Assembly (NCBI GenBank): GCA_002457195.1 | Contig: NTJU01000002.1 | Span: forward strand, 1-42,760 | Reading direction: 5' to 3' | DNA length: 42,760 bases | DNA from: Marine Group II euryarchaeote MED-G33 | GTDB lineage: Archaea; Thermoplasmatota; Poseidoniia; Poseidoniales; Thalassarchaeaceae | Part shown: in pieces, positions 13,982-23,108 of the stretch | How the letters are laid out: each line of letters opens with the position of its first letter | How positions within the stretch are numbered: position 1 is the stretch's first letter | The notes under the pieces: generated by a model | What the model was told of the DNA's origin: nothing | The model's input: the letters and a program-made list of their open reading frames with translations, nothing else | Database searches by the model: none | Program-made: the position numbers and the translations under genes

Positions 13982-14055
13982 GGGCCTGTAGCTTAGCCAG
14001 GTAGAGCGTCCGGCTTTTAACCGGATGGCCAAGGGTTCGAATCCCTTCAGGCCCG
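13982..14055 (+). tRNA. tRNA-Lys (anticodon UUU)
   Basis: A full cloverleaf can be drawn: acceptor GGGCCTG with CAGGCCC (7 pairs), D-arm GCTT...GAGC, anticodon stem TCCGG/CCGGA around loop CTTTTAA with anticodon TTT, variable region TGGCC, T-arm AAGGG TTCGAAT CCCTT, and discriminator G. No CCA is encoded and no intron is present. It lies just upstream of the RNA polymerase operon on the same strand; a run of six T at 14078-14083 may end its transcript. Confidence 0.96.
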
Positions 14056-14077
14056 CTCTATCTGGCTCGGTTGCGGG

Positions 14078-14113: not shown

Positions 14114-14701
14114 ATGGTCGTAAAGAGTTCAACGAAGAAGCGATTGGTAGAATTGGGAGTTCAAGAAGAACATGCCCACAAACTTGCTGACGATGCAAAT
14201 ATGGACGCCATCAAACAAATGAGTGTCGAACAGGTTGCAAAGAAAGTAGGGATTGACACAGACAGCGCTGAACTTGAGAAGATCATGGGAATTATTCGCG
14301 AACAAGGAACTCGCAAACGAACCCGTTCTCGCCGAATCACAATTTCTCAAAAGGCAATCGATGACGATGACATTCCAACTGGTAGCGATCGTTTCAATGC
14401 CCTAAATCACGAACTCGTACCTCACCACGAACTGTTGCCGTCCGAGGAAGAGGCAACAGCCTTGGCACCATGGAAACTGGAAATGCCAGACATTTCTGGT
14501 GAGGGTACGCGCCTGGCCAAAGAATTACTCCCCAAAATACTCATCACTGATCCAGCGGTTCAGGCTCTGAAAGAAATGGAAGAGACTGCGAACGACGAAT
14601 TGCCAGCAGGTTGGCTTACCAACCGCGTAGTTCGTGTTCAACGCTATAGTCGATCATCTGGCACTACGACTGCTTACCGCTTAATTGTGGAGGAAAACTG
14701 A
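14114..14701 (+). CDS. rpoH: RNA polymerase subunit H (Rpb5-like) with an extra N-terminal domain
   Basis: 195 residues, more than twice a normal archaeal RpoH (about 75-85). The RpoH fold is the C-terminal part: HELVPHHELLPSEEEA, then LPKILITDPAV and the end strand TTTAYRLIVEEN. The first 65 residues form a helical domain followed by a basic linker (RKRTRSRR). That domain is clearly homologous to the N-terminus of RpoA2 in the same operon: both begin MVVKS, then TKK, GVQEE and HKLADD at the same positions. RpoH joins the assembled polymerase in the lower jaw near downstream DNA. It is the first gene of the rpoH-B-A1-A2-rpl30e operon, with 12 bases to rpoB. Confidence 0.93.
   Translation: MVVKSSTKKRLVELGVQEEHAHKLADDANMDAIKQMSVEQVAKKVGIDTDSAELEKIMGIIREQGTRKRTRSRRITISQKAIDDDDIPTGSDRFNALNHELVPHHELLPSEEEATALAPWKLEMPDISGEGTRLAKELLPKILITDPAVQALKEMEETANDELPAGWLTNRVVRVQRYSRSSGTTTAYRLIVEEN

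Positions 14702-18454: not shown

Positions 18455-23108
<4,654 letters not shown>

Follow-up and report, generated by a model that had tools for sequence, protein, structure and literature searches.

Few proteins are as conserved as the subunits of RNA polymerase, and it is common to regard the archaeal enzyme as a fixed, minimal Pol II. Why, then, would two subunits of one archaeal polymerase begin with the same extra domain? The question is raised by a 42,760-nucleotide stretch of DNA (the window) from a Marine Group II archaeon of the order Poseidoniales (Ca. Thalassarchaeaceae), whose RpoA2 is 98% identical to that of MED-G33 bin.838, its closest public relative. Poseidoniales are among the most abundant marine archaea. 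The genes of interest lie in the order tRNA-Lys, rpoH, rpoB, rpoA1, rpoA2, and all coordinates of the window given below are on the + strand. rpoH (14114-14701) encodes 195 amino acids and rpoA2 (21534-23108) encodes 524.

The initial annotation of this DNA had proposed that RpoH and RpoA2 begin with homologous domains, with about 20 identities in the first 27 gap-free positions, and that a basic linker follows both domains. We agree on both points. Of these 27 positions, 20 are identical, and the gap-free alignment, which is 52 residues long in all, contains 26 identities (E = 8e-18). In RpoH, the domain comprises residues 1-65 (14114-14308) and is followed by the linker at residues 66-96 (14309-14401), which stands out by its dN/dS and by low model confidence (in the AF2 model, residues 67-79 and 91-101 have a pLDDT of less than 50). 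In RpoA2, the domain comprises residues 1-62 (21534-21719), which match the profile at 2.3e-32 within the window's own genome. A variable linker, delimited by mean identity and dN/dS, occupies residues 63-105 (21720-21848), and the conserved core occupies residues 106-524 (21849-23105; TIGR02389 matches at 6.5e-129 over residues 131-518). Across relatives, the mean net charge of the linker is +4 in RpoH (residues 66-90) and +6 in RpoA2 (residues 63-100). RpoH and RpoA2 are the sole sites of the domain in the window's own genome, where we found no third copy, and a search of plasmids gave no match. These results support one domain that became common to both subunits through duplication.

Could the starts be mis-annotated, so that the real proteins begin past the domain? 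The initial annotation had named this as a way in which it could be wrong, but it was not borne out. The ATG of rpoA2 overlaps the stop codon of rpoA1 and has a ribosome-binding site, GGAGGTGG, just 5' of it. The start of rpoH lies 57 nt past the tRNA-Lys(TTT) that is directly upstream (13982-14056, from ARAGORN). Also, the domain begins at the identical residue in all relatives, and dN/dS is lower in the domain than in the linker, both in RpoH (0.10 vs. 0.27) and in RpoA2 (0.14 vs. 0.40), although these values are rough because dS is high. For these reasons the annotated starts look credible, and we consider mis-annotation, for which we found no evidence and which is a theoretical possibility only, extremely improbable. 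Mean identity is 0.61 in the domain of RpoH vs. 0.53 in its linker; it is 0.70 in both the domain and the core of RpoA2 vs. 0.38 in its linker. Judging from the substitution rates, both copies of the domain are under purifying selection.

How widespread is the domain? It is present in 142 of 145 Poseidoniales genomes, from both families and all 21 of 21 genera, and nearly all of these have two copies, one on a frame of about 200-250 amino acids and one on a frame of about 520. The other three genomes, in which we found no match, are incomplete (82-85%). When we searched 292 Thermoplasmatota genomes with single sequences and with profiles, strong matches were confined to Poseidoniales. These searches missed the relatives on RpoA2 outside the order, which came to light when we searched with the whole of RpoA2 and read the proteins. 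Long RpoA2 N-termini are found in most other families of Thermoplasmatota, and also in the family of the same class that is sister to Poseidoniales (which we call MGIII, from its placement beside them). By profile scoring, RpoA2 has canonical HhH (helix-hairpin-helix) repeats or a relative of the domain at its very N-terminus in 19 of the 31 non-Poseidoniales families that we read; a beta-rich domain of about 130 residues is present in 7 of the 31, including 4 without HhH; and 8 of the 31 have none of these additions. The consensus of the N-domain in these other RpoA2 proteins is MAKKDTIxALxKRGIxEExAEKLAxxxTLxxLKKASxxEL. We had considered that the RpoA2 domain was also new in Poseidoniales, and we dropped this idea after reading the N-termini from the 31 other families.

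RpoH is another matter. None of 37 RpoH loci from other Thermoplasmatota has the domain: RpoH is an ordinary short protein there, and when aligned to the Poseidoniales RpoH profile it matches from position 73 onward at the earliest. The domain is also absent from the archaeal Rpo5 chains in the PDB, which are about 80 residues long. Beyond Thermoplasmatota our comparison covered PDB chains only, as the genome searches were centered on the phylum. The solved RpoA2 chains (Thermococcus, Pyrococcus, and Sulfolobales) have 391-397 residues, and full-length alignments to them start at query residues 120-143. So the earlier statement that ordinary archaeal RpoH and RpoA2 have no such domain stands for RpoH and for the RpoA2 of these solved polymerases, but it fails for RpoA2 within Thermoplasmatota.

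Given relatives on RpoA2 in 19 of 31 families and ordinary RpoH at 37 loci, we conclude that RpoA2 has had the domain since early in Thermoplasmatota and that the copy on RpoH is an innovation that arose in the stem of Poseidoniales. Because the sister groups have the domain only on RpoA2, we infer that it was copied from RpoA2 to RpoH, which would make the RpoA2 domain the ancestral copy and the RpoH domain the Poseidoniales-specific one. In a tree of the domain, which has only 64 columns, all Poseidoniales copies from both subunits fall into a single clade (100/100), to which none of the other sequences belong. Within this clade, the RpoA2 copies form a clade of their own; the RpoH copies do not, and their branching is poorly resolved. 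Later exchange between the two copies is therefore possible.

What kind of domain is it? The suggestion of a small helical fold, about the size of an HhH domain, proved apt. AF2 predicts five helices in each copy: at residues 6-13, 18-25, 30-34, 38-45, and 52-66 of RpoH (mean pLDDT 77) and at residues 6-14, 18-27, 30-34, 38-45, and 49-64 of RpoA2 (mean pLDDT 75). Using hhalign, the Poseidoniales domain matches the RpoA2 N-domains of other Thermoplasmatota (hereafter A5) at 94.7% (E = 5.8e-8, score 36.8), and A5 matches canonical HhH repeats at 94.0% (E = 1.5e-7, score 35.0). The direct link from the Poseidoniales domain to canonical HhH repeats is weaker, at 48% (E = 1.8e-4, score 24.8), so the HhH assignment rests partly on the intermediate A5 family. 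In 200 column shuffles per comparison, the maximum scores were 18.3, 19.3, and 17.7, respectively. The A5 profile recovers Poseidoniales RpoA2 at 2e-3 and 6e-3, the repeats in sibling RpoA2 N-termini are Pfam's HHH_5 (2.5e-22 and 2.3e-33), and a profile of the sibling N-domain finds topoisomerase V (1.9e-10), XPF, Rad51, DisA, and NusA in the PDB. Structural comparison with VIA matches the five-helix model to DisA (Z 9.1, 66 residues, 2.2 A) and NusA (Z 8.7, 70 residues, 3.0 A), and the (HhH)2 domain of FANCM is also among the best matches, all three scoring at Z 8-9. SAM domains fall within the same range (Z 7-9, up to 8.0), yet the stronger sequence links point to HhH proteins and we do not think that this is a SAM domain. 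When the window's own domain was searched against Pfam, NCBIfam, and PDB profiles, no family passed the cut-off, HHH families included; we take the weak matches to ADH_Fe_C and ancMT as due to chance. Together, the profile comparisons and the models identify the shared domain as a degenerate tandem helix-hairpin-helix, or (HhH)2, at the level of homology and fold class.

We say degenerate, and do not claim canonical DNA binding, because the GhG hairpins are missing: they are present in 1 of 87 RpoH copies and 2 of 80 RpoA2 copies vs. 14 of 18 canonical repeats. The Poseidoniales domain has the same five-helix tandem fold as the HHH_5/(HhH)2 family (PF14520, which includes DisA, XPF/FANCM, topoisomerase V, the AR domains of NusA, and the Rad51 N-domain), and its profile similarity to the family runs through the sibling RpoA2 domains. 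It differs in lacking GhG hairpins, in scoring below Pfam cut-offs, and in being attached to RpoH and RpoA2. A5 is homologous to it and lies at the same site on the same subunit as the Poseidoniales RpoA2 copy, but A5 has no copy on RpoH, lacks the VKSxTKK arm, and is often followed by HhH repeats or the beta-rich domain.

The helix-hairpin-helix fold is best known from DNA-handling proteins, so it is natural to ask if both copies grip downstream duplex DNA non-specifically. DNA or RNA is handled by topoisomerase V, XPF, and NusA, which are (HhH)2 relatives, the N-terminal arm (VKSxTKK, net +4) is basic and invariant, the linkers are basic, and the RpoH site lies beside the downstream DNA (PMC2675907). 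There is even a precedent in the C-terminal domain of the bacterial alpha subunit (alpha-CTD; PF03118), which is likewise a module of HhH type that a flexible linker joins to an RNAP subunit. However, the alpha-CTD is on a different subunit, at the C- rather than the N-terminus, and it binds DNA on the upstream rather than the downstream side. (PF03118 does not match the window's two domains or the other Poseidoniales copies, but the RpoA2 HhH repeats of one other Thermoplasmatota family match it at 9.9e-6.) Furthermore, the body of the domain is acidic, with a net charge of about -6, and this together with the loss of the GhG hairpins makes a classic HhH grip by the body doubtful. We consider non-specific gripping of DNA by both copies to be unlikely. 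Nevertheless, some partner that is acidic or is a nucleic acid is suggested by the invariant arm and the linker, both of them basic.

Where on the polymerase would these modules be? RpoH residues 98-195 (14405-14698) are the assembly domain: residues 98-194 correspond to the ordinary Rpo5/Rpb5 assembly domain, by Pfam (Rpb5_C, PF01191, 1.4e-11) and by structure. With VIA, the RpoH model matches T. kodakarensis Rpo5 (Z 9.1, 72 residues, 1.9 A) and residues 143-215 of yeast Rpb5 (Z 8.3, 68 residues, 1.8 A). In the comparison with Rpb5, only the assembly domain is aligned (model residues 98-192), with nothing over the jaw (1-142). Since RpoH 98-194 is the assembly domain, the N-terminal module of RpoH has the same place along the chain as the jaw domain has in eukaryotic Rpb5. 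The assembly domain is also rather long in this RpoH, at about 98 residues vs. about 78 in other archaeal RpoH, and has short insertions. As to RpoA2, the initial annotation had placed this subunit, like RpoH, in the jaw/clamp region. We disagree about the clamp: by homology with Rpb1, we take the RpoA2 N-terminus to lie before the trigger-loop region, on the foot/cleft side. Beside the Rpo5 assembly domain there is a free groove, which is filled by Rpo13 in Sulfolobus and is partly filled in eukaryotes by the Rpb5 jaw, a downstream-DNA binder (PMC2675907). The Rpb5 jaw and Sulfolobales Rpo13 are likewise extra elements on the N-terminal side of the assembly domain, but the jaw has about 130 residues and Rpo13 is a separate helix-turn-helix subunit (PMC2675907). 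Neither is known as an (HhH)2 domain.

Because the domain is duplicated onto two subunits of one complex, the copies might instead bind each other. Such an intramolecular (HhH)2 heterodimer, comparable to XPF-ERCC1 or FANCM-FAAP24, would link RpoH to RpoA2 and stabilize the lower jaw side. (HhH)2 domains often dimerize, FANCM-FAAP24 is among the best structural matches, and the arm and the body are oppositely charged. On the other hand, in most Thermoplasmatota the RpoA2 copy is present without a partner on RpoH, and we doubt that pairing is the explanation. A third idea is that the domain is a docking site for a factor specific to the lineage or for the ribosome, which would couple transcription to another process. 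The AR domains of NusA, which have the same fold, can bind protein, and across the phylum various additional domains have come and gone at the N-terminus of RpoA2, as expected where factors dock. But we found no candidate for the partner, and this idea seems to us rather improbable.

Instead, we think it probable, with some reservation, that an old (HhH)2 module of RpoA2 was copied onto RpoH at the jaw position and that both copies serve as tethered contact arms. First, a degenerate (HhH)2 module on a flexible basic linker was added to the N-terminus of RpoA2 long ago in Thermoplasmatota. Second, in the ancestor of Poseidoniales, a copy would have been placed on the N-terminus of RpoH, where eukaryotic Rpb5 has its jaw domain. 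Both modules would then make their contacts downstream on the polymerase. A nucleic acid or a partner that is acidic may be bound by the basic parts (the invariant arm and the linker), and the helical body, which is acidic, may dock on a protein, possibly copy on copy as in other (HhH)2 heterodimers. The candidate partners are duplex DNA for arm and linker, the other copy, or a factor. This is the simplest account because there are two tethered modules with one origin in RpoA2 and both have kept the identical basic arm. More tentatively, the two tethered modules together might be a lineage-specific jaw that grips downstream DNA or a factor, as an independent counterpart of the Rpb5 jaw and Rpo13. 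This goes further, and we lean somewhat against it.

Abundant marine archaea have thus duplicated a domain between two RNAP subunits, and their polymerase carries a tethered module that is seen in no solved archaeal RNAP (the chains compared are from Thermococcus, Pyrococcus, and Sulfolobales). Should the copy on RpoH act at the jaw, then archaea and eukaryotes have filled the same gap with unrelated domains. If this is true, then the purpose of the Rpb5 jaw position becomes directly testable. Polymerase structures from Sulfolobus and Thermococcus do not represent Thermoplasmatota, which is a warning for those who rely on them. Targeted literature searches, with partial coverage, gave no report of a domain shared by RpoH and RpoA2. 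A survey of archaeal RNAP small subunits covers Rpo6 and Rpo8, and the part of its text consulted here mentions no such domain on Rpo5 (PMC13257274).

The RpoA2 N-terminus is a site of domain addition across the whole phylum Thermoplasmatota. Two or three canonical HhH_5 repeats are found there in several families, at loci L136, L137, L144, L149, L150, L157, L163, and L143. The beta-rich domain of about 130 residues, for which we found no relative by sequence in Pfam or the PDB, is encoded at L128-L133 (MGIII), L161, L173, L168, L170 (twice), L140, L146, L158, and L135. In one genome (G353; L166, 11021-12000), the RpoA2 N-domain is on a separate frame just upstream of the RpoA2 frame, which could be due to a frameshift, an assembly error, or a split gene. 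Finally, misbinning or mislabelling is evident for a contig given as Deltaproteobacteria AH-558-G13 (L102), as the rpoH and rpoA2 on it are those of Poseidoniales.
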